Shown here: piece after piece, positions 23,041-41,547 of the stretch
Layout: the number at the start of each line of letters is the position of its first letter
Numbering within the stretch: position 1 is the first letter of the stretch
NCBI GenBank assembly: GCA_013151555.1
Contig: JAADIA010000035.1
Span: forward strand, 1 to 42,596
Direction of reading: 5' to 3'
Origin: Nitrospirota bacterium
GTDB lineage: Bacteria; NPL-UPA2; JAADIA01
Length of the DNA stretch: 42,596 nucleotides
Translations under genes and position numbers: made by a program
The notes under the pieces: model-generated
The model's database searches: none
Told to the model about the DNA's origin: nothing
Seen by the model: only the letters and a program-made list of their open reading frames with translations

Positions 23041-23115
23041 CACCATAGACAACAGAAAAATCAGAAGTCATCTTTTCTCTGTCCTCTGTCTTCTGTCTTC
23101 TGTTTTCCGTCTTTC
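23041..23115. repeat. Wordy repeat overlapping the 3' end of the STT3-like gene
   Basis: TCTGTCCTCTGTCTTCTGTC and the following TTCTG, with a weak opposite arm AGACAACAGAAAAATCAGAAG. The word matches the one at 14848-14917. On the minus strand it encodes the tail KQKTEDRGQRKDD of the STT3-like protein. Confidence 0.6.
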
Positions 23116-25169
23116 TCCCACCGTTGCGCTTTCCGTAAGAAATCTATGGCTTGTTTCTCATCACCCAAACCGTAGTAAGCTATCCCCAAGTCATAATAAG
23201 CCTGCCTTAGTTTAGGGTAGAGGATAATCGCTCTTTTAAGTTCTTTTACAGCGTCCGCATACTCTTTCTTTCCCAGATATTCCTTTCCTGCCGCATAACG
23301 TTTTCGAGCTTCTTCAATCTCCTCCGGCCTATAGACCTTATAGATCCTATAGACCTCATTGGAAAAGACCAAACCGAATTTCTCCAACCGCCCCGACGGA
23401 GAAGGAGAAGTTGTCTCCATCAAACCCCGATAAGCCTTTCCCTGATATTTAAAACTAAAAGGTTCGGCCTTTCCGGGAACTTCTAATCGATACCCAATAG
23501 CCTGAGGATCAAACTCCAAATGGTTGGTAATATAGCGGGTAGAATAAGGCCCCGTATTGGTATACATTCCCCGGGGTATAACCAGGTAGTTTACTTCATA
23601 CTTCTCACAGAAAGAATAGAGATCTCCTTCCCCTTCTGAGACGATAGCATCGGCAAACTCCTTTATCTTATCCCGGATATCCCGGGATTCCAGGAAAGAA
23701 TGGATGACTATCGGCCGGCCCGTATAAGTGAGAATCTCCAGGGAAGGAGATATGGAACTCAGGAAAACTTCGTCCTTGCCCGTATTGTTTCTGATCCAAG
23801 ATATCAACTGGCCAAGAGAGTAAGTATCAAATGTCAATCCATGGCTGGCCGTTACCCCCACCTCAACCAGCAGAGCTAATATGATAAAGCAGGTAGCTAA
23901 TCTTTTAAAGATCCGCTTCCTTCCAAGAAAAATTATCCCTCCACTAAAAATTGCCAGGAAAAAAGATAGGAATATCTCCATCCTCTGCAAAAGGAGGTAA
24001 AGGATGAAAAAAACCAGAGTAAAGTAAAGCAAAATCTTTTCGGCAAAACCGGCTTCTCTTCTTACCAATCTCCCGATCATTTTCCCCAGGGGCCATAATC
24101 CTGTGAGGAAGAGAACGAAGAAACCCGTGAGAATATATCTCAGATTAGGGCTGGTCCAGTCAGGGAACCAATAGAACCGGACTTCAAAAGGGAGAAGAGC
24201 GGGGTCGACAGGTTTTTGCCCCAGGAATCTTATTTTATAAAGCATTAGAGAATACACATGGGAGTAAACCTTGGTATAGGGTGAAAATAAGAAGGTCAGT
24301 AAACTTAACCCAAGGAAGATTAAGCAGGATACTAAAAAGGCTTTCCTTCTCTCTACTTTTCCATAGCTTATCAAGGCCCAGGCCAATAACAGGGAATAGG
24401 ATAATAACATCGGATAAGAGAGAATAAAGATGCTCGCCCTTAAGTAAGGAATTAGGAGACCTCCCAGGAAAGCAAAACCAACCAGAACCCCAAAATTCCG
24501 ATATAAGGAGAAGATTTTTTCTCTCCAGAGGAGACTAACAACCATAAATACGGCTAACAGCCCAAAGTAAAACTGAGTAAGATGCCAGGAGCCCAGAGCC
24601 AAAAATAAGAAGAGACCGGAAAAGATAATTTTATACCTCTTCCCTGGTTTCAAGCTACTCAAGAAGAAATAAAGGTGAAAGAAGATAAAAGGAAGAGCGA
24701 AATGTTCCTTGAGAAAAGCAAAGCCTACGTTCCGGGCCACTGCCGGGAGACTGAAGGCATAAAATAAGGTAGAGATTATGGCAGCCAGATTATTTTTCCA
24801 GACCTCCCGGGCTAACAAAAATAAAGCTAAAATGGACAGGCTGGAAAAGATAGGAACGAACAATCTCACATAGGTATTAAAGGGAATATTCGAAAAGGGC
24901 ATTATTTTATAAAAATAGCCTACAAAAAACGCCATAAACCAGGCCGTCTTCTCCCGCGCGCGGAGCCCTTCCGGATACTGAACTTTTTTATCTACCACCG
25001 GGATAGGTTTTCCCTGAGCCACCATCAAAGCATAGCGGTAGTGGGAAGCATCTCCCGCAGTAAAGAAGGCCGGAGAGGATTGACTGGTCCGGTAAAGTCC
25101 GACTCTCAGGAAAACTGCGAACAGATAGATACTTAATAAGAGAACAAACCAATATATATTTTTTTTAAT
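23061..25169 (-). CDS. STT3-like membrane oligosaccharyltransferase-type protein with C-terminal TPR
   Basis: About 702 residues if it starts with ATT at 25169. The first open ATG/GTG/TTG frame begins at 25028 (655 residues), but the in-frame upstream sequence encodes a basic start, a membrane helix (IYWFVLLLSIYLFAVFLRV) and GDASHYRYALMVAQG, the conserved luminal Asp/HYR loop of STT3/PglB/AglB relatives. GAGGTGA lies nine bases before the ATT and there is an in-frame stop at 25178. The protein then has YPEG, about ten further helices, a periplasmic region and a TPR pair near the C-terminus (KEYADAVKELKRAIILYP). The tail KQKTEDRGQRKDD comes from a word repeat. Likely a glycan transferase at the inner membrane; substrate unknown. 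Confidence 0.75.
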   Translation of the reverse strand: MKKNIYWFVLLLSIYLFAVFLRVGLYRTSQSSPAFFTAGDASHYRYALMVAQGKPIPVVDKKVQYPEGLRAREKTAWFMAFFVGYFYKIMPFSNIPFNTYVRLFVPIFSSLSILALFLLAREVWKNNLAAIISTLFYAFSLPAVARNVGFAFLKEHFALPFIFFHLYFFLSSLKPGKRYKIIFSGLFLFLALGSWHLTQFYFGLLAVFMVVSLLWREKIFSLYRNFGVLVGFAFLGGLLIPYLRASIFILSYPMLLSYSLLLAWALISYGKVERRKAFLVSCLIFLGLSLLTFLFSPYTKVYSHVYSLMLYKIRFLGQKPVDPALLPFEVRFYWFPDWTSPNLRYILTGFFVLFLTGLWPLGKMIGRLVRREAGFAEKILLYFTLVFFILYLLLQRMEIFLSFFLAIFSGGIIFLGRKRIFKRLATCFIILALLVEVGVTASHGLTFDTYSLGQLISWIRNNTGKDEVFLSSISPSLEILTYTGRPIVIHSFLESRDIRDKIKEFADAIVSEGEGDLYSFCEKYEVNYLVIPRGMYTNTGPYSTRYITNHLEFDPQAIGYRLEVPGKAEPFSFKYQGKAYRGLMETTSPSPSGRLEKFGLVFSNEVYRIYKVYRPEEIEEARKRYAAGKEYLGKKEYADAVKELKRAIILYPKLRQAYYDLGIAYYGLGDEKQAIDFLRKAQRWEKDGKQKTEDRGQRKDDF

Positions 25170-27166: not shown

Positions 27167-28375
27167 TTACTGCGCTTTAAGAGAAGTAAGTTCAATTGCC
27201 CGGAGATTACGTATTCCATACTTAAGTCGATAGGTTTTGCTAACTGCTTCCTCCTGTCCCTTCTTAGTAATCCAGACATAGTTCTTCTTAATTACATAAT
27301 CCAACCCCTTCGCCTTAAGAACTAGATCTAGAATATCAGTCAAGGGGATCCTCTTCGGGGTATAGATACTAACCCGAGGATTTTTCAGTTCTTCTATAGC
27401 CCTTTCATCAAAGGCAATGTTCAATCCACTCATTTTGGACAAGTAAAAGATCACTTTGGAAAGATCCGTATTCTTGAAGTCAACAGCAACCAAGGTCTTT
27501 ATTCCCCTTTTTTCAGGCTCTTCCCTTACCTTTTCTTTCTTGGTTTCCTGTCCTTTCTCAACTTGCTGCTGATCAGATAAAGTCTTTTTCTTAGTAGATA
27601 CCTGGTTTCTCGGACTCACAGCTTCGGTATGAACAGGAGGACGATTCGCCTTCAGGGAAAGAGCGGAAGCATTCCCTTTCTCAAAAAGAAGGGGATACCC
27701 GGCCCTGTTGGTCATATTCGGGTTGCTTTTCCCTCTTTCATTTCTCTTCGCAGAGCGCAGGACAGGCGCCTTTTTCAAGACAAAGCTCTCGAGGAGTCGA
27801 TCAAAATCTTCCGAGTAACGAGGGAAATCTTTCTTCTCTGCTTCATATCCCAATTCGTAAAAATAGGGACCTCTTTGGAGAAAGACCCTTCGGCTTTGAA
27901 TAGAGAGCTCTTTCGCCCCTAAGGGATTAAGAATAGGTAAATGGTACCGGAAAGAAGCAATGACCTCTTTTCCTCTTAATCCTGCAAAGGTTACTTCTTT
28001 CTCCGAGAGAAGCTTAAAGTTCTTAAACAACCTGCGTTTCTTTTTGTAATTAATTACTTTCTCTTCCAAACTGTTATATTTGCCTCCCTCTTCCTTAACG
28101 GGACTAACAGTTACTACCAGAGAAGCTCTATAGGCCTTTTTTTTACTTACCGGCCCCAGAATTTGAACCTGGCTGTATCTTTCATACTTCCCTTCCGATT
28201 CTATTACTCTCCATTTGCTCGGATAGAGAAAAGTAAATCCTAATTGGGAAGAAGCACTCTCATAATCTATATATTTGCCCCGGCTGGCCCATGCTCTCCC
28301 GGGAATTCCCGAAAACAGGAGCAAAATTACCAAAACGAGACAAAAACCACCCTTTTTCTTAGCGCTAATCTTCAC
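27167..28375 (-). CDS. PsbP-like domain plus STN (secretin N0) protein
   Basis: A 402-residue exported protein, starting with GTG at 28375 behind GGGAG. Residues 10-30 form a signal peptide. Residues about 35-205 resemble a PsbP/DUF1795-type beta domain (LGFTFLYPSKWRVIES...). A Ser/Lys-rich linker follows, then residues ~295-395 form an STN/N0 domain: VDFKNTDLSKVIFYLSKMSG, YTPKRIPLTDILDLVLKAKG, YVIKKNYVWITKKG and a short N1-like start (YRLKYGIRNLRAIELT). The N0 half is close to that of the AMIN-TPR-STN protein. It ends there, with no secretin barrel. It is the last gene of the pilus/secretion run and may add an alternative N0 ring to the split secretins. Confidence 0.75.
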   Translation of the reverse strand: MKISAKKKGGFCLVLVILLLFSGIPGRAWASRGKYIDYESASSQLGFTFLYPSKWRVIESEGKYERYSQVQILGPVSKKKAYRASLVVTVSPVKEEGGKYNSLEEKVINYKKKRRLFKNFKLLSEKEVTFAGLRGKEVIASFRYHLPILNPLGAKELSIQSRRVFLQRGPYFYELGYEAEKKDFPRYSEDFDRLLESFVLKKAPVLRSAKRNERGKSNPNMTNRAGYPLLFEKGNASALSLKANRPPVHTEAVSPRNQVSTKKKTLSDQQQVEKGQETKKEKVREEPEKRGIKTLVAVDFKNTDLSKVIFYLSKMSGLNIAFDERAIEELKNPRVSIYTPKRIPLTDILDLVLKAKGLDYVIKKNYVWITKKGQEEAVSKTYRLKYGIRNLRAIELTSLKAQ

Positions 28376-28411: not shown

Positions 28412-29404
28412 TTAATTTCTGGACTGCTGCTCCCAGCCGGGATATTCGCCCAGGCCATAGATTTGCCTCAGCACCTCTTTAAGATAATCTTCTCCTGTAT
28501 CGATCCAGCTCTCATAGAGGTCCAGAAGCCAATCCGAACCTCCGTATTTGGACTTCGATGTCTTCCAGATATTTATCAAGGCAACATCGTTTACATACTC
28601 CTCATCGATAGTATACTCATAATCATAGGCAGTGTTCATATAATCGTACATAGCATGTAGTCCTTCATGAACCAGGACGGCCGCTATTTTACCCGTGTTT
28701 ATATTGGCATCACCGCTATCGTAAATAGTAATGCTGATAGTATTCCCATTCCAGACACCACTGGTATCTCGGGCCGTAGCCGACAGGGTAATACTAACGG
28801 GTATATTGTATCCGTTTCTCCCGATAGCATCAGCCACATAGGCATACCCATTCTCCCTCAAGAAATCCATAGCCAGAGGTAAATACATCACCCAATCGTT
28901 TGGAGTCGTATCAGCCGGATCTATAGGAAGAGGCAGGTCAAGTGCCTTAGGATCGAGATTTGAGCCGATATCCTCTAGCACTTTGGCCAAGGGACCAACA
29001 TGCACTCCCCCGACACTGGCCAGGATCATAAGGCCATTCTTCCTCAAACTATAAAGATCATAGGATTTGGGATTGATTATCCCCGGGTTAAGATAGACAT
29101 AGGAATGCTTCCAGGGGTCAAACATCACCCCCTTCTTTAAATCTCCCTCATCAATTTTATTCACATAGGACCCGGCTTGGAGAGAAGCTATCAGGTTCGC
29201 ATTCCCACTGGGGGGATATGCTCCATAGTCCATCTCGAACATCCGGATACCGCTATCCAGGGCGCGAAGTTCACTTATGGCTTCCGCTTTCCTGGCCTCA
29301 TCCCGAGCACGGTGAAGAGCGGGCAAGACAACCGCTGAGAGAATTGTAATGATAGCTAAGGCGACTAATAGCTCCACCAGCGTGAAACCTTTTTTCAGTC
29401 TCAT
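28412..29404 (-). CDS. GspG-like pseudopilin fused to an HExxH metallopeptidase-like domain
   Basis: About 330 residues from ATG at 29404 (GGAGGT seven bases upstream). The N-terminus is a type III signal sequence: MRLKKG then FTLVELLVALAIITILSAVV, with cleavage after Gly6 and Glu at +5. Residues ~40-125 match the type II secretion major pseudopilin (MDYGAYPPSG ... FDPWKHSYVYLNPG ... YDLYSLRKNG). Another ~200 residues follow, with VLVHEGLHAMYDY (HEGLH at 246-250) and IDEEYVNDVAL (Glu268/269), the layout of gluzincin zinc peptidases. Normal pseudopilins end near residue 140. Peptidase activity is inferred from motif and spacing only. Confidence 0.82.
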   Translation of the reverse strand: MRLKKGFTLVELLVALAIITILSAVVLPALHRARDEARKAEAISELRALDSGIRMFEMDYGAYPPSGNANLIASLQAGSYVNKIDEGDLKKGVMFDPWKHSYVYLNPGIINPKSYDLYSLRKNGLMILASVGGVHVGPLAKVLEDIGSNLDPKALDLPLPIDPADTTPNDWVMYLPLAMDFLRENGYAYVADAIGRNGYNIPVSITLSATARDTSGVWNGNTISITIYDSGDANINTGKIAAVLVHEGLHAMYDYMNTAYDYEYTIDEEYVNDVALINIWKTSKSKYGGSDWLLDLYESWIDTGEDYLKEVLRQIYGLGEYPGWEQQSRN

Positions 29405-29437: not shown

Positions 29438-29497
29438 TGCCGGATTAAAGTCCGGCGTCCCTTTTGCAATTCCCAATCTTCAATTTACAATTAAGTC
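29438..29497. repeat. Hairpin and wordy repeat in the pseudopilin leader
   Basis: GCCGGATTAAAGTCCGGC forms a short hairpin (GCCGGA/TCCGGC); next to it GCAATTCCCAATCTTCAATT and the following TACAATT is another word-type repeat. Both lie in the predicted 115-base leader of the pseudopilin mRNA. Confidence 0.5.
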
Positions 29498-29527: not shown

Positions 29528-29556
29528 AATATACCATGCCATTCTTTTCTTGTCAA
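29528..29556 (-). promoter_or_regulatory. Promoter of the pseudopilin-peptidase gene
   Basis: On the minus strand TTGACA (29556-29551), a 17-base spacer and TATATT (29533-29528). The -35 box overlaps the stop codon of the upstream secretin gene. The gene can thus be transcribed separately from the rest of the pilus locus. Confidence 0.75.
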
Positions 29557-30671
29557 GAAGTCCCTCCTGCTCCAATTCTCTCCCCCCTTGGAGAAACGAG
29601 ATAAGCAGTAATAAAAATGAGCAGGTTTTTCTTCACTTTACTGGAATACTTGTATTGGAAAGCCTTGCCCAGAAAAGGAATACTTCCTAAAATAGGAACC
29701 TTTTTCTCTATCACATCAGTCGAGTCATGAATCAACCCTCCCAGAACTATACTCTCTCCGCTGCGGACCACCATGCTGGTATTGGTCGTCCGGGTATCCA
29801 CTACCGGCCAGCCATAGCCCGCCTCCACGTCGTTATAAACCGTTATCCGTTTCACCAGGACCTTGACCGTAGGTTTAATATCCAGGGTGATGAGAGTACT
29901 TCCCTCCGGAACCGTAGGAGTTACCTCCAGATAGACCCCGGCATCATCCTGCGCTATGGTATAGTTTGTCTGCCATATAGGATACTCGGATGTTCCTACA
30001 TTCTGGATACTTCTTTGGCTGACATAAGGAATATTTTGGGTGACCTCAATAGTAGCCGGCTGTCCATTGACAGTAGTCACCCGGGGAGCAGAAAGAACAT
30101 TGACTTTCTTTTGCTTCTCCAGAGCCCGGAGGAGAGCATTAAAAGCCGTATCGTTCAATCGGGTAATCCAGAAGGAGGTCCCTGCCGATTCATTAGGAAA
30201 CCCGGCATCGGAATCCGCCCAATTGCTGATAACATCTACGTTTCCATCGCTAGGGCCGGTCTTGATATTCGGTATATCCAGGTTAACTCCCAGTTCATTG
30301 ATATTAGTGACCGTCAACTCCACAAATTTGGCCTCGATAGTAACCTGAGGATGATAAACATCCAGGCGTTTGATCATTTCCTCTATCTTCTTTTGAAGCG
30401 AAGGCGGAGCTTTAACGATAAGGGTACTGGAAACAGGGTCAACCTCAATGGTAGCTTGAGGAAACATTTTCCTTAAAACGTCAACGATAGTTCTTTCACC
30501 TGACACAGCTCCCTGCTCCGGGGACACTCCCTGATCGGGAATAATCGCCCCCTCTCCCGGCGGCCCTCCCGGCCCCCCTGGCATCCCCCCCTCCGGAGGG
30601 CTTTCTCCCTGAGCAAAGGCCACCCCTCCCAGGGATAAAATCAAACCGAAAACGATAATTAACTTTGTCAT
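29553..30671 (-). CDS. Short secretin, copy B
   Basis: A 372-residue outer-membrane secretin. Residues 1-20 are a signal peptide; then a Gly/Pro-rich linker (GGMPGGPGGPPGEG), an N1/N3-type secretin ring domain (FPQATIEVDPVSSTLIVKAP ... MIKRLDVYHPQVTIEAKFVE) and the secretin barrel: VLSAPRVTTVNGQPATIEV, TVPEGSTLITLDIKPTV, SGESIVLGGLI and VPILGSIPFLGKAF, ending with the IFITAYLVSP strand. Complete PilQ/GspD proteins are longer, with an N0 domain before the ring domains; it is missing here. It is a tandem paralogue of the next gene upstream. GGAGGTG seven bases before ATG also forms the stop of copy A. Confidence 0.9.
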   Translation of the reverse strand: MTKLIIVFGLILSLGGVAFAQGESPPEGGMPGGPGGPPGEGAIIPDQGVSPEQGAVSGERTIVDVLRKMFPQATIEVDPVSSTLIVKAPPSLQKKIEEMIKRLDVYHPQVTIEAKFVELTVTNINELGVNLDIPNIKTGPSDGNVDVISNWADSDAGFPNESAGTSFWITRLNDTAFNALLRALEKQKKVNVLSAPRVTTVNGQPATIEVTQNIPYVSQRSIQNVGTSEYPIWQTNYTIAQDDAGVYLEVTPTVPEGSTLITLDIKPTVKVLVKRITVYNDVEAGYGWPVVDTRTTNTSMVVRSGESIVLGGLIHDSTDVIEKKVPILGSIPFLGKAFQYKYSSKVKKNLLIFITAYLVSPRGERIGAGGTS

Positions 30672-30677
30672 ATTATT

Positions 30678-31736
30678 TCACCTCCTGACTACCGTCTTCT
30701 CCCCGCTGGGAGAGAGGAGGTAAGCGGTAATAAAGATGAGGAGATTTTTCTTCTCATCCTTAGAGTACTTATGCCGAAAGGCATATCCTAAGAGAGGGAT
30801 ATCCCCTAAAATAGGGGTCTTCTTCTCCACCATTCTGGAATTGTCCCTGATCAACCCTCCCAGAACCACTGTCTCCCCGCTATCTATCACCAGGGTAGTA
30901 TTGGTAGTTCGCTCGTCAATGACCGGCCAACCGAGGTCAGCAGGAATATTAAGACCGGCAAATATATCTATCTGTTTGACCAATTCGCGCACTGTGGGCT
31001 TAATATCGAGAGTAATCAAAGTACTTCCCTCAGGCACCCGCGGAGTAACTTCTAAAAAGATGCCGGCATCTTCTTCTTCTATAGTATAGTTAGTCTGCCG
31101 CGTTGTTCCCGACCCTGTTTCCGATTGCTGTGTTGATACGGCACTAACATAGGGAATAGTCTGGGTAATCTCTATGGTAGCTTTCTGTCCATTGAGGGTA
31201 GTTACCATAGGAGCGGAAAGAACATTGACCTTTTTCTTTTTACTCAGAGCTCGCAATACCGACTGGAAGGCCGTATTGGAAAGCTTGGTGTACCAGAGTG
31301 ACCAGGCTGCCCCGCTCTCCGGAAAGCTGGTATCGGCATCCGCCCAGTTAGTAATGACATCCATGTCAATATTCTTCCCTTTCCTGAGAACGATGTTAGC
31401 AATATCCGTATCTATCCCCAACTCATTGATATTGTTAACCGTCAACTCCACAAACTTGGCTTCAACAGTGATTTGAGGATGATAGACATCCAGACGTTCG
31501 ATCATTCCCTCTATCTTCTTCTGAAGCGAAGGCGGAGCTTTAATGATAAGGGTGCTGGTAAGGGGATCCACCTCAATGGTCGCCTGAGGAAACATGCTCC
31601 TTAAAACATCTACGATGGTTGTCCCTCTCCCCGTCCCTGCTTCTGTTCCTGTTCCTGGTTCCTCCTGCCCTCTTGCTGAGGCCAGAAAGGAAAATAACAA
31701 AACGCTCACTAGAATTAATTTTATTGCTTTCATCAC
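30678..31736 (-). CDS. Short secretin, copy A
   Basis: A 352-residue secretin with its own signal peptide (LILVSVLLFSFLASARG), a short Gly/Thr linker (GTGTEAGTGRGT), one N-terminal ring domain (IVDVLRSMFPQATIEVDP ... SLQKKIEGMIERLDVYHPQI) and the barrel (VLSAPMVTTLNGQKATIEI, SGETVVLGGLI, TPILGDIPLLGYAF, LLIFITAYLLSP). It starts with GTG at 31736 or ATG at 31733, four bases after the AMIN-TPR-STN gene. The N0/STN domain that should precede it is the end of that separate gene. Very similar in layout and sequence to copy B, so they arose by tandem duplication. Confidence 0.9.
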   Translation of the reverse strand: MMKAIKLILVSVLLFSFLASARGQEEPGTGTEAGTGRGTTIVDVLRSMFPQATIEVDPLTSTLIIKAPPSLQKKIEGMIERLDVYHPQITVEAKFVELTVNNINELGIDTDIANIVLRKGKNIDMDVITNWADADTSFPESGAAWSLWYTKLSNTAFQSVLRALSKKKKVNVLSAPMVTTLNGQKATIEITQTIPYVSAVSTQQSETGSGTTRQTNYTIEEEDAGIFLEVTPRVPEGSTLITLDIKPTVRELVKQIDIFAGLNIPADLGWPVIDERTTNTTLVIDSGETVVLGGLIRDNSRMVEKKTPILGDIPLLGYAFRHKYSKDEKKNLLIFITAYLLSPSGEKTVVRR

Positions 31737-31740
31737 CTTT

Positions 31741-33414
31741 CTAATTTACCTCCTGTTGTTTTCCCAAAAGGGTAGGCGCAACCTGCCGGATCGTGCGTAT
31801 TCCATACTTGAGCTTATAGGCTTTAGTAACCGGCTCTTCCAACTGTCCCTTCTTCGTAACCCAGATATAGGTATCCTTAATCACATAGTCTAATCCTTTT
31901 ACCTTCAGAATCAGATCCAGGGCATCAGTCAAAGGAATCTTCGTAGGAATATATATAGTGACCCGGGGGTCGGTTAACTCCTCCAAGGCCTTCTCGTCGA
32001 TGACGATAGCTATTCCACTCATCTTGGAGAGAAATAAAACCACCTCGCGAAGGTCCGTATCCTTGAAGGTCATGGTAACCATAGTTTTCTCTGCCTGGTT
32101 TTTCAATCCCACTATTGCCACTGCTTCAGGTCCTGTTTTTTGGCCGGGTTTAGTCCCTCCTCTCCTCGTCTCTCGCCCTTCCGGATTTATGGTATCGTGA
32201 TAATCAACAGGAGAGGTATAAAGCGCCTTGGTTACATCCAGGGCTCTTCGCCCTTCTACTAATTCTTTCTCAGCATCAGCTCTCTCTTTATCTACTTTTA
32301 AAGCCTGCATCCTTGCCTTTGTAATTAGTTGCTCAGCCCGCCTATTGCCCGGACTGATATCAAGCACTTTCTCCCCTTCAGCGATAGCCTCTAGATAACG
32401 TCCCTGGAGGTAATATTTCTTTCCTCGATTCAGATAGGCAGCAAGCTTATTCTCTTTCGCCTCTTCCCGCAGCCTGATTTCCTCCTGGATTTTCGCTTCT
32501 TTCTTCTTCTCCCCCGCCAGAGCCAGATAACTTCGCGCCTCCTTATTCTTCGAATCCAAAGCTAAAACAATTTCGAACTCCTTAATAGCCTCATCGAATT
32601 TGTTAGTTTGGTAGTATTTCTCTCCCCGGGCTAAAGAATCTTTGATCTTCCGCTCCCGTTCCTTTGCTTCCCGGCGGGAAACCTCCTCAGCTAACTTTCT
32701 CTTAGCTGCTGCTGCTTTCGCTTTAAGTTCAATTTCTTTTTTCAGCTTTTTATCCAGGAGCTGCTTAGCTCTTTCTTCAGCTCTCTTCCGATACATCTCT
32801 TCTCTTTTTGCAATCTCTCTCTTTGCTTCTAACTTTTTCTTCTCTTCCGCTTTCTTTTTCAGCTCAATTTTCCTGGTTAGAGCCAAACGCTCGGCTTCTT
32901 CCTTCTTCTGTTTGATTCCCGCTTTTTCCTCAGCGGCTAGCTTTCTCTTCATTTTCTTCTCCGCTTCAGATCTTGCCCGCTCCTCGCTCCGCAAACGAGC
33001 CTTTGCTTCCCTGGGAAGAGAAAAATAGAGCAATAACCTTTTTCCTGCTTTTCGCACCCTGCTCTTGGCTGACTGGGTTAAGTTAACCACGATACGAACA
33101 GTATCCGGCTTATACTGTGAGTAATTGACTGTCTTCACTATCCCATTCATTATTTCCACAGTCCTGGGTTCCTTAAGAGTAACTCCCGGAATATCCAAAA
33201 CCAGCCGGGGGGGATTCTTAAGAGTAAAGGAACGATAATTCACAGATTCTGTGAACTCCAGGGTAATAACCGTCTCTCCTGTCTTTTGCCCAACCCCGAT
33301 AGCACCCACTTCCATTGTTCCGGAATAAGCAGTCGTCAATCCTAACAGAAAAAGCAGGATAAAGACTATTCCTCTTTTTGTTTTTGTCTTAATAGATTTC
33401 CTCGATCCATCCAT
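31741..33414 (-). CDS. AMIN-TPR-STN protein (N-terminal part of a split PilQ-like secretin)
   Basis: About 557 residues from ATG at 33414 (GGGAG nine bases upstream); an upstream in-frame start lacks a ribosome site. A signal anchor (GIVFILLFLLGLTTAYSG) is followed by an AMIN domain at about 35-130 (VITLEFTESVNYRSFTLKNP, RLVLDIPG, IVKTVNYSQYKPDTVRIVV), a long Lys/Glu/Arg/Ala coiled coil (130-260), two or more TPRs (GEKYYQTNKFDEAIKEFEIV; GKKYYLQGRYLEAIAEGEKV), and an STN/N0 domain (FKDTDLREVVLFLSKMSG ... IPLTDALDLILKVKG). In PilQ the AMIN and N0 domains are on the same chain as the secretin; here the gene stops after N0. AMIN domains bind peptidoglycan or pilus parts in the periplasm. Confidence 0.85.
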   Translation of the reverse strand: MDGSRKSIKTKTKRGIVFILLFLLGLTTAYSGTMEVGAIGVGQKTGETVITLEFTESVNYRSFTLKNPPRLVLDIPGVTLKEPRTVEIMNGIVKTVNYSQYKPDTVRIVVNLTQSAKSRVRKAGKRLLLYFSLPREAKARLRSEERARSEAEKKMKRKLAAEEKAGIKQKKEEAERLALTRKIELKKKAEEKKKLEAKREIAKREEMYRKRAEERAKQLLDKKLKKEIELKAKAAAAKRKLAEEVSRREAKERERKIKDSLARGEKYYQTNKFDEAIKEFEIVLALDSKNKEARSYLALAGEKKKEAKIQEEIRLREEAKENKLAAYLNRGKKYYLQGRYLEAIAEGEKVLDISPGNRRAEQLITKARMQALKVDKERADAEKELVEGRRALDVTKALYTSPVDYHDTINPEGRETRRGGTKPGQKTGPEAVAIVGLKNQAEKTMVTMTFKDTDLREVVLFLSKMSGIAIVIDEKALEELTDPRVTIYIPTKIPLTDALDLILKVKGLDYVIKDTYIWVTKKGQLEEPVTKAYKLKYGIRTIRQVAPTLLGKQQEVN

Positions 33415-33604
33415 CGCTTCTATCTCCCTCTGCTTTTTACTTGTCCGTCGGCAGTAACTCCGCCTGGAACTTCGTTTCACCCTTCTTCATGAGCCATCCT
33501 CCAGGCTCCTCCAGGGATTTTTCTCGCCCGCATTCCCCCATATTTTTTCTTTGTCTTTTTTCCCTTCTCTTTCAGACTCTATTTTCCTGCTTCTTTTACT
33601 TAGA

Positions 33605-34150
33605 TTATCCACCCAAAGGCAACATAAGCTCTTTCTTCTTTTCCTTATTATATAACTCTACTTTATCCTTTTCAATCTTAATCACTTTCCACCCTTCAAT
33701 CTCATCTCCTTCTCTCACGTTATAAGTTTCTCTCCCCTCAATGAAAGCAATGAACCCGTCAGGAGTACCTATTACACCCCGGTATATCAATTCCCCTTCG
33801 GTTCTTATCCCTTTTCTGCTTCCAGAAGACAGTTTTGCAACCTTTGGCAATTGGGAAAAAGGATTTCTTTGAATCAAGTCATTGTAATAGGTAATCGGCT
33901 TTCTGACCAGGAGACCGTCAAAATCCACAGCAACAGCCGCTTTGGTTGCTGCCAGCCTCTCCTTTTTTATCCTCCCGATAGTTACTACCTCTTCCGGAGA
34001 AGAAGTTTCCCTCTTAGACCAACCAATGATAAAATATAAACCGAGAAAAACAAATGTAGCCAAGAGAAATAACGAGATCACTTTCTCGGGTTTCTCCTTT
34101 ACAAAAATCAGTATCTTCAAGAAACTAAAATCAAACTTCACTTTTTTCAT
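33605..34150 (-). CDS. pilP: PilP/GspC-like inner-membrane protein
   Basis: About 181 residues. One N-terminal transmembrane helix (VISLFLLATFVFLGLYFIIGW), a linker, then NPFSQLP and the HR-type beta domain (LIYRGVIGTPDGFIAFIEG, YNVREGDEIEGWKVIKIEKD, VELYNKEKKKEL) typical of PilP and GspC, which link the inner-membrane complex to the secretin. ATG at 34150 overlaps the PilO stop (ATGA); a TTG at 34174 is an alternative. The following 190-base gap (33415-33604) shows no convincing gene. Confidence 0.75.
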   Translation of the reverse strand: MKKVKFDFSFLKILIFVKEKPEKVISLFLLATFVFLGLYFIIGWSKRETSSPEEVVTIGRIKKERLAATKAAVAVDFDGLLVRKPITYYNDLIQRNPFSQLPKVAKLSSGSRKGIRTEGELIYRGVIGTPDGFIAFIEGRETYNVREGDEIEGWKVIKIEKDKVELYNKEKKKELMLPLGG

Positions 34151-35046
34151 CCCTCGTTGGAAGGAAATAGCCAAACGGAAAGGAGAAGATTAACTTCCAA
34201 TTCTTTCTTCTCATTTTCCTTTTTCCCTCTCTCTAATGATTGTTTCCCGATAGACACCGCTCTTCTTCCTTGCCTCAATCGCCCTCCTCTACTCCGGGGA
34301 CTTGCCTCTCTCCCACTAACCACGGACTTAATCTCCAGACTTTTTACAGTAAAGAAATGAGAACGGTTAGACAACTGGTAGAGAAGATTGGTCAAGGTTG
34401 ATATTGAAACCCTCACTCCCAGCTCAAAATTTAATTCTTCCAATAACCTTTGTGAGGATTCGTCCCCTGAGAGGGAAACGACCACACCCATCCCTCCCGC
34501 ATTCGATTTTGCTCCCTCCGGAGAAAACGGGAGAGGTTTGAATGTATCGAGATTGCTCACTCCCGATTTTGCAACGAGGGTTAGCAATTCTTTGGCAGTC
34601 ATTAGTTGACTCAAAAGCATAGACAACTCTTTCTTGCTCCCTGGTTTCTCTCTCTTAAAACCGAGGCGAGGAGGAATTTCGATTGCGGTCATTCCCTTCA
34701 GGCTATGAAGGTCGTTTCCCACTTTCTCCAGTTGCTCTTCAAAATAAAGATTTAGTTGCCCTGTTTCCCCCGGCAAAGAGACCAATCGATCAAAATCCAG
34801 CGTTTTTATCACTTTTGCATATTGTTCTTTCAGCATCTCTTTTTCCTTCGTCAACTTTACAATCATCTCCGGCGAAGGGGGATTATCTGCATATTTTTGG
34901 AGTTGAGCTACCTTTTGCTTAGTCAAATCAATCACTTCTTGCCTCTTTACCACAACCGGCCTCACCAAGAAGAGATAGAGGCTAAGGGAAACAAGTACTA
35001 ACGTAAAAATAGCTGCTCCCAAGAGATGCTTTTTCAAAAAAGTCAT
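34147..35046 (-). CDS. pilO: PilO-like inner-membrane alignment protein
   Basis: About 299 residues with one N-terminal transmembrane helix (LLGAAIFTLVLVSLSLYLFL), a coiled coil (QEVIDLTKQKVAQLQKY ... LTKEKEMLKEQYAKVI) and a C-terminal ferredoxin-like region, the PilO/GspM plan; several such proteins in other phyla (Amuc_1100 type) are of this length. A basic, Ser/Arg-rich insertion near the C-terminus (SPRSRGGRLRQGRRAVS) is unusual. Two ATGs are adjacent; the second (35046) has better spacing from GGAG. It lies between PilMN and PilP, as expected. Confidence 0.75.
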   Translation of the reverse strand: MTFLKKHLLGAAIFTLVLVSLSLYLFLVRPVVVKRQEVIDLTKQKVAQLQKYADNPPSPEMIVKLTKEKEMLKEQYAKVIKTLDFDRLVSLPGETGQLNLYFEEQLEKVGNDLHSLKGMTAIEIPPRLGFKREKPGSKKELSMLLSQLMTAKELLTLVAKSGVSNLDTFKPLPFSPEGAKSNAGGMGVVVSLSGDESSQRLLEELNFELGVRVSISTLTNLLYQLSNRSHFFTVKSLEIKSVVSGREASPRSRGGRLRQGRRAVSIGKQSLERGKKENEKKELEVNLLLSVWLFPSNEG

Positions 35047-35102
35047 CATTTTCTCCGCTAATTGCCCATTCTATCTATGTGAAAACTGAAGAAATAGAAC
35101 CT

Positions 35103-36869
35103 TCATCTTCTTTTAAATTCCCAATTTCCGCCTTCATTGATATTGTCTTCTTCATATACATCCGCTCCCTGCGGCGGGGTAAAGGTTTTGCTTCCCTCCG
35201 GAGGTGCGCTTTCGACAGACTGCCTGGAAACAGGTTGCCTGGAAACAGGAGCAAACTTGTTAGAGAAAGAAAAAGCAGATTTTTTGAAAGGGAAAGACTC
35301 CAAAGATATCTGAAGACTAAACTGGTAAAATTCTTCCTTTCCCCTTATTCTCTGCGGAGTACCTGCTTCCACTTTTCCAAAAAAAGGAGAAGATTCCAAT
35401 TCGAAAACAGTACCTCTAATAACCGGGATAGTTGGGGCTTCCCCTTCCAAGAAGAGAATTCCATTCTCTTGAGAGAAACTATTCAAGCTAACCTCATCGG
35501 GAACAAGCCTACTCAATTCCAAAAGAACCGTCAACCAGAATTCCTTCCCCTGGGTTAATTTTTTCAAAGTTTCTAATCTCTCAGTAATTGTTCCTATCTC
35601 TCCTTTGAGCATTCCTATCGGCTGTTCATACTTCTGATATTTTTTTAATTTTTCCTCAATAGTCGCTAATTGGTTCTTCTTCAAATCGTAATCCTGACGG
35701 GCAAAAGCGTAGGCCATAACCGCAATTAAGAGAGTCAAAACAAAAGAAAAGATGAAATATCCTTTCCTCTTTTGAAATTCTTTTTTCTTGGTTATCTCTA
35801 TTGGAAGTAAACTAATTTCACTGGCACATTTGGTAAGGGGGCGGAGAGCTAAGCCAACAGCTACTGCGAAAGAAGATTCCTGACCGGAAAGAGGAAAACC
35901 ATTCGGGAGGTGAATATTCTTTAAAAGAGAACTTTTCTTCACTTCTATCTTTAATTCTTTCTCTAAAAACTTATCCAGGTTAGCAAGTTCAGCCCCACCA
36001 CCACTTAGAAATATCCGGTCAATGGTCGTTCCTCCCAATTCCGCCTGGAAAAAGGTCAGGGAGCGCCCTATATCGTTCACTAAACGGGAGAGGACGGGGA
36101 TAATCACCTGGGTAAATTTTTTCTTCTCATCTTCTAAATCGACCATCCTCTTTTCTCTCTTCATCTTCTCTGCTTCCGCAAAGTCCATTCCGAAACTCTG
36201 CTGGATAGCCTGGGTAAGATCATGCCCTCCAATAGGAATACTTCTTGTCCAACAAAGACTTCCTTCCCGTTCAATACTCATCTCTGTTGATTTAGCCCCG
36301 ATATCAAGGAGAATCGATGTTTCTTGCTCAGATAATTCCTGGTTGAACTTAAGACAGTTATAAAAGGCTAAAGGGCTATAATCAACTACTTCCGGTTCTA
36401 TTCGGAAAGCAGATACTTCTTCCAGGAGTTTATTAATCAATTCTGCTTTCGTAGCTACCAATACCACCTTGATATCCATCGCTTTCTTTTTCAAAACCTG
36501 ATAATCCCAGATGACTTCCTCAAGAGGAAGGGGAATCTGCTGCTGGGCCTCGTAGTTAACTATTTGAGCGATACGGGTGGTATCAACCGGAGGAAGTTTG
36601 ACATAGCGGATATAGACAGAGGGACCTTGGGTAGCCATAGATAGAGCTTTCCCCTTCAGGGTTCCCATCTCTCCTAAAGCTTTCTCCAAAGCTTCTCTAA
36701 TATTCTTTTTTTCCTTGGCTTTCTCACCATTCAAGGAAGAAGGGAATTCAATTAGGGCCGCTCCGGACAGCTCGATTTTTTCCTTCACTTTTTTTAAGGC
36801 TACTACTTTTATCGAGCTGGACCCAATATCTAATCCTATAGATTCTTTAGTCTTATTAAAGATAGCTAT
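35103..36869 (-). CDS. PilM-PilN fusion protein
   Basis: About 588 residues if it starts with ATA at 36869. The first GTG (36788) would remove the ATP-binding start SIGLDIGSSSIKVVALK, which is encoded in frame just upstream; AAAAGGAG lies seven bases before the ATA. Residues 1-345 are PilM, an actin-like ATPase (PPVDTTRIAQIVNYEAQQQI, LLDIGAKSTEMSI, FLSGGGAEL). Then comes ISLLPIE, the peptide by which PilN normally binds PilM, then a transmembrane helix (GYFIFSFVLTLLIAVMAYAF) and the PilN coiled coil and periplasmic domain. Usually PilM and PilN are separate. The tail contains a tandem PVSRQPVSRQSV. Confidence 0.85.
   Translation of the reverse strand: MAIFNKTKESIGLDIGSSSIKVVALKKVKEKIELSGAALIEFPSSLNGEKAKEKKNIREALEKALGEMGTLKGKALSMATQGPSVYIRYVKLPPVDTTRIAQIVNYEAQQQIPLPLEEVIWDYQVLKKKAMDIKVVLVATKAELINKLLEEVSAFRIEPEVVDYSPLAFYNCLKFNQELSEQETSILLDIGAKSTEMSIEREGSLCWTRSIPIGGHDLTQAIQQSFGMDFAEAEKMKREKRMVDLEDEKKKFTQVIIPVLSRLVNDIGRSLTFFQAELGGTTIDRIFLSGGGAELANLDKFLEKELKIEVKKSSLLKNIHLPNGFPLSGQESSFAVAVGLALRPLTKCASEISLLPIEITKKKEFQKRKGYFIFSFVLTLLIAVMAYAFARQDYDLKKNQLATIEEKLKKYQKYEQPIGMLKGEIGTITERLETLKKLTQGKEFWLTVLLELSRLVPDEVSLNSFSQENGILFLEGEAPTIPVIRGTVFELESSPFFGKVEAGTPQRIRGKEEFYQFSLQISLESFPFKKSAFSFSNKFAPVSRQPVSRQSVESAPPEGSKTFTPPQGADVYEEDNINEGGNWEFKRR
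35213..35252. repeat. Short tandem word repeat in pilMN
   Basis: CTGTTTCCAGGCAAC occurs twice in tandem (minus strand) and encodes PVSRQPVSRQ near the C-terminus of the PilMN protein, in a Pro/Ser-rich disordered tail. Confidence 0.55.
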
Positions 36870-36997
36870 GACATTGCTCCTTTTAAACGTCAGCCTTCAC
36901 TCTATTCAAGAACTAACTTAATTATAAATTCAAACAAACTCTTAATTTACAGGCACTTAAAACTTTTAGTTTCCAATTTGATGCTCATAGAATATTT

Positions 36998-37026
36998 ATT
37001 GTATCACAAATTATTCCTATATTCAA
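36998..37026 (-). promoter_or_regulatory. Promoter of the pilMN-led operon
   Basis: On the minus strand TTGAAT (37026-37021), a 17-base spacer and TACAAT (37003-36998). It would give a leader of about 120 bases before pilMN. Together with the gap after pilC, it separates pilMN-pilO-pilP-secretin transcription from the ATPase genes. Confidence 0.6.
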
Positions 37027-37046
37027 GTAAATTTAATCATTAATCA

Positions 37047-38294
37047 TTAGGTCAAAGACATTGCCATCTGAATCAGAGGAATAAATAAGGCGATAACAAT
37101 AAAACCAACCAGCGATCCCATAAGAACAATGAGAAGAGGTTCCATCACCGAAGTTAACGCCGCCACAGCTGTATCTACTTCATCGTCATAGTTATCCGCT
37201 ATTTTAATAAGCATCTGATCCAGGTTTCCTGTTTCCTCTCCGACGGCGATCATGCTGGTAACCAAAGGAGGAAAGACTCCGCTGTCTTCCAAAGGACCGG
37301 CAATAGTTTCCCCTTCGCGGATACTATCATGGACATTACTAATGGCCCGGGATATCACTATGTTCCCGGACGTTTCTTTAGTTATAGAAAGAGCCTGAAG
37401 TATCGGTACCCCGCTGGAGATAAGAGTGCCTAACGTTCGACTGAACCTGGCCACCGATAATTTTTGGACCAAAGGTCCGAAGAGAGGAAAACTCAATTTC
37501 ATTTTATCAATAGCAGCTCCCCCTCTTTTCGTTCTTTTTATTAATTTGAAAACTATGATTAAGGCAATAATAACCACAGGGATGAGCAACGCTTGCTTCG
37601 TTCGGAGAAAGTTATTGATACCTATCAAAAGCTGGGTAGGAGCCGGAAGGTCTTGCTTAATATCCTTGAACATCTTGACAAAAGTAGGAATAACAAGTTT
37701 AAAAATAAGAGCTAAAACGCCTACTATAACGAAGATAACCACAATAGGATAGACCATAGCTCCCTTTATCTTACTCTGAAGCTTTGCGCTTTTTTCTGCG
37801 AACTCTGCCAAACGTTGAAGAACAGTATCCAGAACTCCTCCAATCTCACCAGCCTTAACCATATTCACAAAAAGTTTGGAAAAGGCTCGAGGATGTTTAG
37901 CTAAAGCTTCAGAAAAAGTGCTTCCCCCTTCCACATCTTGAGAGACCGTTTCCAAAATCTCTTTCAGAGTACAGGGTTTCATCTGCTTTCGAAGAACGCC
38001 AAGACTGCGAATGAGGGGAAGCCCGGCATCGATAAGCGTAGATAATTGTCGCGTGAAGGGAGTAAGGTTTTTGGCACTTACCCGGCCGGCCATCCCGGGT
38101 ATCTTAATTTGAAACTGGAAAGCACTCGGCTTCCCGGAAGAGGACTTATCTTTAGACCTTCGTTCGATTATCCGGGTAGGGAAATAGTGCATCTCCCGCA
38201 CCTGGCTGATAGCCGAGGCTTGATTATCAGCTTCGACCATCCCCTTTACCTGTTTACCTTTCGCATCAGTAGCTACATAATCAAAGATGGGCAT
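37047..38294 (-). CDS. pilC: Type IV pilus inner-membrane platform protein PilC
   Basis: About 415 residues with two GspF domains. It begins MPIFDYVATDAKGKQVKG, the usual PilC/GspF start, with GGGGAG ten bases upstream; the open frame upstream to 38381 runs through a wordy repeat and is not coding. First domain about 70-200 (FTRQLSTLIDAGLPLIRSL ... MVKAGEIGGVLDTVLQRLA), the helix pair IKGAMVYPIVVIFVIVGVL, then the second domain (FSRTLGTLISSGVPILQAL ... AVGEETGNLDQMLIKIADN) and C-terminal helix (VGFIVIALFIPLIQMAMSL). It holds the assembly ATPase at the membrane. Confidence 0.94.
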   Translation of the reverse strand: MPIFDYVATDAKGKQVKGMVEADNQASAISQVREMHYFPTRIIERRSKDKSSSGKPSAFQFQIKIPGMAGRVSAKNLTPFTRQLSTLIDAGLPLIRSLGVLRKQMKPCTLKEILETVSQDVEGGSTFSEALAKHPRAFSKLFVNMVKAGEIGGVLDTVLQRLAEFAEKSAKLQSKIKGAMVYPIVVIFVIVGVLALIFKLVIPTFVKMFKDIKQDLPAPTQLLIGINNFLRTKQALLIPVVIIALIIVFKLIKRTKRGGAAIDKMKLSFPLFGPLVQKLSVARFSRTLGTLISSGVPILQALSITKETSGNIVISRAISNVHDSIREGETIAGPLEDSGVFPPLVTSMIAVGEETGNLDQMLIKIADNYDDEVDTAVAALTSVMEPLLIVLMGSLVGFIVIALFIPLIQMAMSLT

Positions 38295-38324
38295 TTTGTC
38301 ATATCTCCCCAAATCAGTGCTTTT

Positions 38325-38475
38325 AAAAATCCGAAATTCTAAGTACGAAATACGAAACAATATCAAATGATCGAAATGCAAATAACCGAAACACTAAGTT
38401 TTGAAAATTTTAACCTTAGAATTTTAAATTTGTTTCGAACTTCGATATTCGGGTTTAGATTTTATTTTTTAGCGT
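38325..38475. repeat. Wordy imperfect inverted repeat (ccgaaattctaagtacgaaa type)
   Basis: Left arm AATCCGAAATTCTAAGTACG and on to AAATACGAAACAA; right arm TTTGTTTCGAACTTCGATAT and on to TCGGGTTTAGATTT. The arms are approximate reverse complements and can form a hairpin of more than 30 bp. It lies between pilB and pilC. Confidence 0.65.
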
Positions 38476-38509
38476 CGAAACCAAGACAACCTTTACTTAA
38501 CAGACAAAG

Positions 38510-38527
38510 CATAGTCCCCGGACTATG
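38510..38527. other. Perfect 8-bp hairpin after pilB
   Basis: CATAGTCC-CC-GGACTATG, a near-perfect palindrome 15 bases beyond the pilB stop. No T-run follows. It may be a piece of a GTCTATAGTC-type word repeat, or a processing or attenuation hairpin between pilB and pilC. Confidence 0.5.
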
Positions 38528-38541
38528 GACTAAATTGTTTC

Positions 38542-40266
38542 TCAAGCAAATAGCTGAGTCCCCTTGACCACTTCCTCTATAGTAGTAATTCCCTGATAAA
38601 TCTTCTCCAGACCATCCTCCCGCATCGTTCTCATCCCCTGTTCCCGCGCTTTTGCCCGAACATCCTTAGTAGGAGCCTTCCCGATGATAAGAACTCTTAT
38701 ATCCTCGCTCATAACGAGGAGTTCGTAAATACCTGTTCGCCCTTTATATCCAACATTGTCACAAAGATCGCACCCCTTCCCCCGATAGAAGGTCCGTTCC
38801 TTAACCTCATCCGCAGTCAGCCCGATAGCTTGCAGTTCGTTCTCACCCGGCTGGTAGGGTTCTCGACAATTCTGACAGAGGGTTCGAACTAATCTCTGGC
38901 CAAGAACCGCCTCCAGCGTAGAGGTAATCAGAAAGGGTTCAATCTGCATATCGACCAAACGAGTTATCGTAGAAGGAGCATCATTAGTATGTAAGGTACT
39001 GAGAACCATATGTCCCGTAAGGGAAGCTTGGATAGCAATCTCGGCTGTCTCTAAATCTCGAATCTCGCCGACCAGGATAACATCCGGGTCCTGACGAAGA
39101 ATATGGCGCAAACAACTGGCAAAGGTAAGACCAATAGCTTCTTTAATTTGCACCTGCATAATCCCGGGGATATTATACTCTACCGGATCCTCAGTAGTAA
39201 TAATCTTTATCTCGGGACTGTTAATTGCCCGGAGAGCAGAGTATAAAGTAGTTGTCTTACCACAACCGGTTGGGCCGGTAGCCAGAATTATTCCATTGGG
39301 TTTTTTGATCAATTGCTCAAATTTTACAAGGTCATCAGGTAACATTCCAACATGATCCAGAGAAAGCATAACAATAGACCTGTCCAGAACTCGCATTACG
39401 ATACTTTCCCCAAAAACAGTGGGCAGAGTAGAAATGCGAAGGTCCACTTCCCTCCCTCCCATATCGATCTGAATACGTCCATCCTGCGGAAGACGCCTCT
39501 CTGCGATATCCAAATTAGCCATAACCTTTATTCGAGATGCAAGAGCCAAGCTCAAATGTTTTGGGGGAGGAACCATCTCATAGAGAGTTCCATCAACCCG
39601 GTAACGAATCTTGAATTGATCCTCAAAAGGTTCGAAATGAATATCACTGGCCCGGGCCTTGACCGCCTGCATAAGAACCAGGTTAAGGAGCTTAACTACG
39701 GGGACTTGTTCCGTTAATTGTTGTAACTGTTGAACACTGGTCTCCGGTTCTTTTTCTTCCGCTATTTCAGTAATCTTACCGGCCTGTTCTCCAAGCTCTT
39801 CCAAAAGCTCTCCCACCGATTCCATCTCTGTTCCATAATGCTTCTCTATAGCCCTTTCCACATGCTCCTCAGTACTAATGGCTCCCTTAACTTCACAACC
39901 CAAGAGGAAACGAAGATCGTTCAAGGTGTGAGCATTCAAAGGGTCCGCCATAGCCACGACAAGAGTATTATCCTCCCAGCTTACCGGGATAACCTTATAA
40001 ATGCGGGTGACGGAAGGAGAGACGCGATCGAGAATATCCCTGGGGATTTCCAGTTGGTCAAGATTAATGGACGGCATCCCTGTCTGTTCCCTCAAAGTCA
40101 TAACAACATCAGCTTCCTTAACAAAGTCCAAATCTATAAGCACCTGTCCCAGAAGTCGCTTTGCCTTCTTCTGCTTCTCTAAAGCCTCCTGGAGTTGCTC
40201 CTCATTAATTAATCCTTTGGCTACCAGGAGTTCTCCCAAGGCCCGCCGGCTTTGACTATTTACCAT
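38542..40266 (-). CDS. pilB: Type IV pilus assembly ATPase PilB (GspE family)
   Basis: A 574-residue hexameric secretion ATPase. N-terminal MshEN-type domain (LGELLVAKGLINEEQLQEAL ... TGMPSINL), then N2 (SDIHFEPFEDQFKIRYRVDG), Walker A GPTGCGKTTTLYSAL, Asp box TTEDPVEY, Walker B ILVGEIRDLETAEIA, His box LSTLHTNDAP, and the zinc tetracysteine (CQNC ... CDLC). GGAG seven bases before ATG. It powers pilus extension or pseudopilus assembly with PilC. Confidence 0.95.
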   Translation of the reverse strand: MVNSQSRRALGELLVAKGLINEEQLQEALEKQKKAKRLLGQVLIDLDFVKEADVVMTLREQTGMPSINLDQLEIPRDILDRVSPSVTRIYKVIPVSWEDNTLVVAMADPLNAHTLNDLRFLLGCEVKGAISTEEHVERAIEKHYGTEMESVGELLEELGEQAGKITEIAEEKEPETSVQQLQQLTEQVPVVKLLNLVLMQAVKARASDIHFEPFEDQFKIRYRVDGTLYEMVPPPKHLSLALASRIKVMANLDIAERRLPQDGRIQIDMGGREVDLRISTLPTVFGESIVMRVLDRSIVMLSLDHVGMLPDDLVKFEQLIKKPNGIILATGPTGCGKTTTLYSALRAINSPEIKIITTEDPVEYNIPGIMQVQIKEAIGLTFASCLRHILRQDPDVILVGEIRDLETAEIAIQASLTGHMVLSTLHTNDAPSTITRLVDMQIEPFLITSTLEAVLGQRLVRTLCQNCREPYQPGENELQAIGLTADEVKERTFYRGKGCDLCDNVGYKGRTGIYELLVMSEDIRVLIIGKAPTKDVRAKAREQGMRTMREDGLEKIYQGITTIEEVVKGTQLFA

Positions 40267-40353
40267 TTCCTCACTCCAGAAAATAACACGTTAATTTTTT
40301 TACCTTCGCAACTTAAAATTTATTGAGTTCGCAGAGTTTATTTAAGCAAAATC

Positions 40354-41418
40354 CTACGTATATCCCAGTTTAGCTTGAAGGGCCGCAGCATCATAAGCCC
40401 GATTCATTGCTTCCTCATAGCTAATTAGTCCGTTGCTATGAAGTTCGTAAAGGGATTGGTCTAAGGTCTTCATTCCATATTTGGCTCCCGTCTCAATGAC
40501 GGACGGAAGATTATAGGCTTTCTTTTCCCTGATCAAGTTCTGGACAGCCGGAGTAGCTATCATTACTTCGAAAGCTGCAACCCGGCCCCGGCCGCCATCT
40601 TTGGGAAGGAGCATCTGGGAAATTACCGCTAAAATGGATACGGAAAGTTGAGCTCTAATCTGCTCTTGTTGCTCCATAGGGAAAGCATCAATGATCCGAT
40701 CCATCGTTCGAGCAGCTCCCGTAGTATGCAGGGTAGCAAAGACCAAATGTCCGGTCTCTGCCGCCGTAATAGCAGCTTCCATGGTAGCCAAGTCCCGCAT
40801 TTCTCCCACTAAAATCACATCCGGGTCCTGACGAAGCGCCTTGACTATAGCTTCAGCAAAGGAGGGAACATCCACTCCCAGTTCCCTTTGAGTGACCACC
40901 GACTTTTTATGTTTATGATAATACTCAATAGGATCCTCAACCGTGATTATGTGACAATCCCTTTCTTGATTGATAAAATCAAGCATTGTAGCCAAAGTGG
41001 TCGTCTTCCCGCAACCGGTTGGTCCGGTAACCAGGATAAGTCCCTTCGGTTTATAAAGGAGCTCTTTGATAGTCGGAGACAAACCAAGCTCCTCAAAAGT
41101 CAAAAGCTTTGAGGGAATCAGCCTCAAGGCTAAACCTATATTACCCTTCTGCTTGTAAACACTTACCCTGAACCTGGCCAAATCTCCAAAAGCGAACCCG
41201 AAATCCGTTCCCCCTCTTTCCTGGATTTTCTGCTGATGGGCAACGGAGGTAATCGATTTCATCAGCTCCATGGTATCCTCTGCCGTGAGAGGTTTGAAAT
41301 CTAAGACGTCCAGCCTTCCATCAACCCGCAATACCGGCGGCTTATCTACCGTTAAATGCAGATCGGAAGCATTCCTTTCCACTACAACACTTAAAAGCTC
41401 ACTTATATCTATACTCAT
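40354..41418 (-). CDS. pilT: Type IV pilus retraction ATPase PilT
   Basis: A 354-residue PilT. It lacks the N1 domain of PilB, starts with the PAS-like domain (ASDLHLTVDKPPVLRVDGRL), and has Walker A GPTGCGKTTTLATML, Walker B ILVGEMRDLATMEAAI, His box FATLHTTGAARTMDRIID and the C-terminal AIRNLIRE-like helix (PAVQNLIREKKAYNL). Its presence suggests true retractable pili and not just a type II secretion pseudopilus. The ribosome site is weak. Confidence 0.95.
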   Translation of the reverse strand: MSIDISELLSVVVERNASDLHLTVDKPPVLRVDGRLDVLDFKPLTAEDTMELMKSITSVAHQQKIQERGGTDFGFAFGDLARFRVSVYKQKGNIGLALRLIPSKLLTFEELGLSPTIKELLYKPKGLILVTGPTGCGKTTTLATMLDFINQERDCHIITVEDPIEYYHKHKKSVVTQRELGVDVPSFAEAIVKALRQDPDVILVGEMRDLATMEAAITAAETGHLVFATLHTTGAARTMDRIIDAFPMEQQEQIRAQLSVSILAVISQMLLPKDGGRGRVAAFEVMIATPAVQNLIREKKAYNLPSVIETGAKYGMKTLDQSLYELHSNGLISYEEAMNRAYDAAALQAKLGYT

Positions 41419-41435
41419 AACAATACCTGACTCAT

Positions 41436-41512
41436 AACAACACCTGTTTAAAGTTTAAGGTTTAAGGTTTAAGGTTTGAAACTTCAGGCTATTCTTTTTC
41501 ACTTGCCCTCTT
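41436..41512. repeat. Wordy repeat (tttaaggtttaagg type)
   Basis: Tandem GTTTAAAGTTTAAGGTTTAA and on to GGTTTAAGGTTTG, with a weak opposite arm (CTTGAACCCTTA) downstream. It fills most of the gap between pilT and the next ATPase gene. Confidence 0.6.
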
Positions 41513-41547
41513 GAACCCTTATCTTTCCTTTGTGCCTTATCTTTAAA

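Follow-up and report, generated by a model that had tools for sequence, protein, structure and literature searches.

A probable modular type IV pilin with a predicted C-terminal thermolysin-like gluzincin core in a Nitrospirota pilus locus

Modular type IV pilins such as PilB and PilC of Streptococcus sanguinis consist of a class III signal and a pilin module, onto which a functional module is grafted C-terminally (PMC8179133). A survey published in 2021 describes 264 modular pilin architectures and predicts S74 and M26 peptidase modules among them; ligand binding is the function of those that have been studied, for example through the vWA module of PilB and through lectin modules (PMC8179133).

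Here we analysed a stretch of 42,596 nucleotides (the window) from a Nitrospirota bacterium (GCA_013151555.1, contig JAADIA010000035.1). The window encodes a pilin-like protein with a C-terminal extension that resembles the core of thermolysin. Its source is a single draft genome of 99 contigs from a little-known phylum. A previous sequence-only reading of this DNA was aware of no such system in the literature, which is too strong, since according to the survey the principle of the modular pilin is known and peptidase modules have even been anticipated (PMC8179133). To judge from the sequence, what is new is the thermolysin-like core on a pilin, and this fusion was found in one genome only. 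Literature on a pseudopilin combined with a metalloprotease was not found. The InterPro entry cited as M26 in the survey, IPR011493, is one that we take to be a GLUG repeat and not a catalytic domain.

The pilin module and its gene

The modular pilin gene encodes a protein of 330 amino acids on the minus strand, with the ATG at 29404 and the stop codon ending at 28412. The coordinates 28412-29404 reported earlier are thus correct, and the strand, which had been left out, is minus. Directly upstream of the ATG is the sequence AAAGGAGG. A sigma-70-like promoter (TTGACA-17-TATATT with a TG extension, that is, an extended -10) is found ahead of the gene at 29528-29556 (minus strand). It shows 11 matches out of 12, is one of four sites this good on both strands of the window, and a site of this quality occurs in 0.3% of the shuffles of the intergenic stretch. 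The promoter-like site suggests that the gene is probably transcribed from its own promoter, with a leader of approximately 115 bases. Between the promoter and the ribosome-binding site this predicted 5′ leader contains a GC-rich hairpin (29438-29457, minus strand), which is possibly regulatory.

The pilin module comprises residues 1-125 (29030-29404, minus strand). The N-terminus, MRLKKG|FTLVELL, is a class III prepilin signal with a predicted cut between G6 and F7, so that Glu would be the fifth residue of the mature protein; a hydrophobic helix is also present. In Pfam, residues 1-27 match N_methyl (PF07963, 1.5e-8, above the cut-off), which corresponds to the N-terminal class III signal IPR012902, and residues 33-124 match T2SSG (2e-11), where the core ends at about residue 124. 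In the PDB, the module matches GspG (5wda, E=7e-12).

The sequence-only reading had called this part a complete GspG-type pseudopilin. The details it named are all present: the cleavage site G|F, the Glu at position 5 and, in the core, DPW...YDLYSL; these and the T2SSG core are shared with GspG, the major pseudopilin of type II secretion. The module is not complete in the sense of GspG, however, as the NCBIfam GspG model TIGR01710 gives 68.1 bits, below the cut-off of 88.85, and the Asp-rich (calcium-site) tail is absent, with the extension standing in its place. The ordinary GspG of the same genome, encoded on another contig, does have the Asp-rich tail (GPDGVEGGGDDIVNW). Unlike GspG, moreover, the protein is encoded in a type IV pilus locus. 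On these grounds the modular pilin is not a true GspG. An origin of the pilin module by recent duplication of the GspG gene of this genome was considered and rejected; a tree keeps the two apart, with weak support.

The C-terminal region and its similarity to thermolysin

The pilin core (residues 1-124) is followed by a C-terminal tail of 205 residues. HEGLH is located at residues 246-250 (28655-28669, minus strand) and no other HExxH is encoded by the 34 probable genes of the window. H246 and H250 are predicted zinc ligands, and E247 is the predicted general base. The sequence DEEYVND (residues 267-273) contains E268 and E269, 18 and 19 residues past H250, and D273, four residues past E269; both motifs and their spacing are as had been noted. 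The stretch E269-Y-V-N-D273 (28586-28600, minus strand) would provide the third zinc ligand and its Asp partner. We prefer E269 because D273 is found at +4, as in the pair E166/D170 of thermolysin; E268 is possible, and MAFFT put E268, not E269, at the third-ligand position.

The tail has no match in Pfam (none to the M4 catalytic models at E values up to 10) or among the PDB sequences. NCBIfam yielded two weak, irrelevant matches and no peptidase, and nothing matched in phage and plasmid records. Searches in several hundred genomes returned weak matches only, the best of which include large secreted metallopeptidases of the gluzincin type. These align exactly on WNG...SG...NTG...HExxH of the tail and bear weak FTP/PepSY, M4 or M36 signals. 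The relatives of the secreted peptidases, gathered with these peptidases as queries and without the window protein, form a family in which the two His and the Glu of HExxH and the Glu and Asp of the downstream ExxxD never vary; HEGLH aligns to the invariant HExxH. Searched against the PDB, the family profile, again without the query, finds bacillolysin with 2.4e-10 and thermolysin with 1.6e-9 (range 2e-10 to 3e-9).

The thermolysin-like (M4/M36-type) profile scores the window protein with 18.6 bits over residues 199-260, and the best control reaches 11.9 bits. Unrelated reading frames (1,584) and two sets of 2,000 shuffles each served as controls; the first set was unconstrained, and in the second HEGLH, E269 and D273 stayed at their positions. 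Since the family had been picked after the weak hits were seen, the test was redone without the initially noticed members: the protein scores 15.3 and 15.6 bits and ranks first, with best controls of 13.9 and 12.3 bits, so that the margin shrinks to 1.4-3.3 bits once these seeds are removed. An hhalign comparison gave a score of 38.2 (P=8.8e-6), with a maximum of 26.3 among 633 controls. The profile alignment proper covers the two strands and the helix with HExxH; beyond it, E269 and D273 lie at the spacing of the family. Altogether, the hmmsearch and hhalign results delimit a gluzincin-like core at residues 199-273 (28586-28810, minus strand) with a predicted beta hairpin, HExxH helix and third-ligand helix. 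By this similarity, the pilin carries an additional module of a type that is not confined to pilus biology; it matches no curated family.

The order W218-N-G, HExxH-A, D254-Y255 and E269xxxD273 is that of thermolysin and bacillolysin (M4, clan MA) and of fungalysin (M36), at nearly equal spacing, and HAMYDY of the tail aligns with HAVTDY of thermolysin. W218 and H246 are 28 residues apart and H250 and E269 are 19 apart; the thermolysin distances are 27 (W115 to H142) and 20 residues. The scores and alignments indicate a real similarity of the tail to thermolysin-like cores and not a motif that arose by chance. The proposal of a gluzincin-like module on a pilin, with thermolysin as the right comparison, is supported by the profile and hhalign scores.

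For the full-length protein as well as for the isolated tail, AlphaFold2 without homologues returned models with a pLDDT of 37-38. The order of elements in the low-confidence model (two strands, the HEGLH helix and the E268/E269 helix) is as expected of a small gluzincin, and a fold search with it gave no matches. Because of the low pLDDT no fold is claimed from this model; the gluzincin fold is predicted from the profile similarity.

HExxH with a downstream ExxxD, a feature of M4, is present (H246-H250, E269-D273). A Pfam scan of the protein detects no FTP/PepSY propeptide, and the pilin module occupies that place. No histidine follows H250 and only 61 residues follow E269; the transition-state His231 of thermolysin has no counterpart, as there is no His after H250. 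In contrast to the approximately 316 residues of thermolysin, bacillolysin and fungalysin, about 130 residues of the module are recognisable or modelled. With no Pfam match, no propeptide, no second M4 domain and no His231 counterpart, the modular pilin is by its sequence features not an M4 family member. In HEGLHA, Gly and Ala are at positions that we take to be excluded by PROSITE PS00142. The nearest sequence relatives of the tail are four secreted M4/M36-like gluzincins of other phyla, which differ from the modular pilin in their large size and in lacking a pilin module. These four and their relatives are encoded in scattered genomes, and their recognition by the Pfam M4 and M36 models is marginal, although their profile matches thermolysin.

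Proposed function and alternative explanations

With moderate confidence, we propose that the protein is a modular (minor) type IV pilin, in which the GspG-like module carries a C-terminal minimal thermolysin-like gluzincin as a displayed zinc peptidase. The pilin module would anchor the protein in the inner membrane, prepilin peptidase would cleave it after G6 and the subunit would join a pilus or pseudopilus. The pilus motor would carry it most likely to the filament tip or near it, because the added module is bulky, as has been argued for modular pilins (PMC8179133). The zinc peptidase would then be displayed in the periplasm or brought to the cell surface by way of a secretin, and would cut a protein or peptide there. 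The signal, the pilin module and the C-terminal graft are like those of the Streptococcus sanguinis-type modular pilins, which differ in that the grafted module is a vWA, lectin or S74 module and not a thermolysin-like gluzincin core. The modular pilins that have been studied mostly bind. A pilin with an intact zinc-protease active site would open the idea of an enzyme that is retractable or mounted on a tip to direct tests. If the proposal is true, the functions of type IV filaments would be widened from binding to catalysis, and a small gluzincin core would become available for study without the second domain.

The main alternative is that the module has a gluzincin-derived fold without peptidase activity and that, stabilised by zinc, it provides a minor pilin with a domain for binding or adhesion. 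This is possible, if rather unlikely: known modular pilins that have been studied bind ligands (PMC8179133), and the module is short and has neither the His231 counterpart nor the second M4 domain, but none of the catalytic residues of HExxH and of the third-ligand motif has been lost. Their preservation in a sequence that is otherwise not recognisable as a family member suggests selection on these residues.

We regard it as unlikely that the protein is a periplasmic processing enzyme that uses the pilin helix as an anchor and, without being displayed, remains at the inner membrane to trim proteins of the pilus, the secretin or the envelope. The likely own promoter and the adjoining secretin and N0 genes would be in line with this, as would the observation that pilins reside in the inner membrane until they are assembled (PMC8179133). 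However, it would be unusual for a housekeeping peptidase to be anchored by a pilin signal, and in other species of the phylum the machinery is present but this gene is not.

It is very improbable that HEGLH arose by chance and that the extension is an unrelated helical one, although such an origin would agree with the missing family match of the tail and the low AlphaFold confidence. Any HExxH occurs in 0.15% of the composition-preserving shuffles of the tail, and HExxH with hydrophobic flanks and a suitably spaced Glu in 0.0045%, the latter being a pattern picked post hoc. Furthermore, the profile and hhalign scores exceed those of the motif-preserving shuffles, and WNG, HAxxDY and ExxxD are collinear with thermolysin. 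An assembly or annotation artefact, in which a misassembly or base error joined two genes, might be suspected in a draft genome of 99 contigs with a fusion seen once, but it can be practically dismissed, since the frame is continuous, the G+C content is even over the junction (48.0 and 46.8%), only the pilin part has a ribosome-binding site and a promoter in front of it, and the gene order on both flanks, which is that of same-phylum genomes, counts against a chimera.

The pilus locus and its counterparts in related genomes

The modular pilin gene is part of a pilus locus on the minus strand. The order of genes is three T2SSE ATPases, PilC, a PilM-PilN fusion, PilO- and PilP-like proteins, an AMIN-TPR-N0 protein, two secretins, the modular pilin and a PsbP-like/N0 protein. 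The type IV pilus machinery, with PilB, two further T2SSE ATPases, PilC and the PilM/PilN-, PilO- and PilP-like proteins, is located at 33605-42531. The AMIN-TPR-N0 protein (31741-33480, minus strand) represents a secretin N-terminus that has been split off; it is followed by secretin 1 (30678-31736, minus strand) and secretin 2 (29553-30671, minus strand; Secretin_N and Secretin), which is 65% identical to secretin 1. Downstream of the modular pilin, the PsbP-like + N0 protein (27167-28375, minus strand) has an N0 domain that is 61% identical to the N0 of the AMIN-TPR-N0 protein. The secretin is thus split: at 29553-33480 and 27167-28375 (minus strand), N0, accompanied by AMIN and TPR or by a PsbP-like domain, is encoded apart from the barrels, and each half is present in two copies.

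Two genomes of the same phylum (G008 and G006) encode two full-length tandem secretins, directly followed by a Pol I exonuclease gene, and a genome of the same order (G002) encodes two secretins with a similar split. A pilin-peptidase gene is absent from the corresponding locus in these three genomes, from which we infer that the modular pilin gene, and probably the second N0 protein too, was gained in this lineage. Homologues of the fusion were not found in the same-order and same-phylum genomes examined, nor in a pattern scan of 84,980 genomes, a kind of scan that reaches close relatives only. Viral and genome collections likewise contained no relatives when searched with the tail or with a degenerate core pattern (artificially varied copies of the tail core, for search use only). 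Among the HExxH...ExxxD frames of the fetched loci, one of 100 has a pilin N-terminus, and this is the window protein. That pilin-peptidase fusions are common among relatives was rejected, since just one of the 113 pilin-like frames of these loci, again this protein, contains HExxH.

The neighbourhood fits the earlier suggestion that the module is pushed through the neighbouring secretins, a passage that may take place. A more specific arrangement seems doubtful to us, in which secretin 2, the PsbP-N0 protein and the pilin-gluzincin form a dedicated protease-delivering filament with a second channel; the enzyme would act as piston or tip and would be pushed out and pulled back, not secreted.

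Further observations concern other genes of the window. The PilM-PilN fusion (35103-36788, minus strand, 561 amino acids) resembles the Amuc_1101 family, and the proteins next to it are similar to Amuc_1100 and Amuc_1098, pilus proteins whose names derive from Akkermansia. The window also encodes, at 23061-25028 (minus strand), a TPR-containing membrane protein that is Dpy19-like (C-mannosyltransferase-type) and is conserved beside the pilus locus in G006 and G008.
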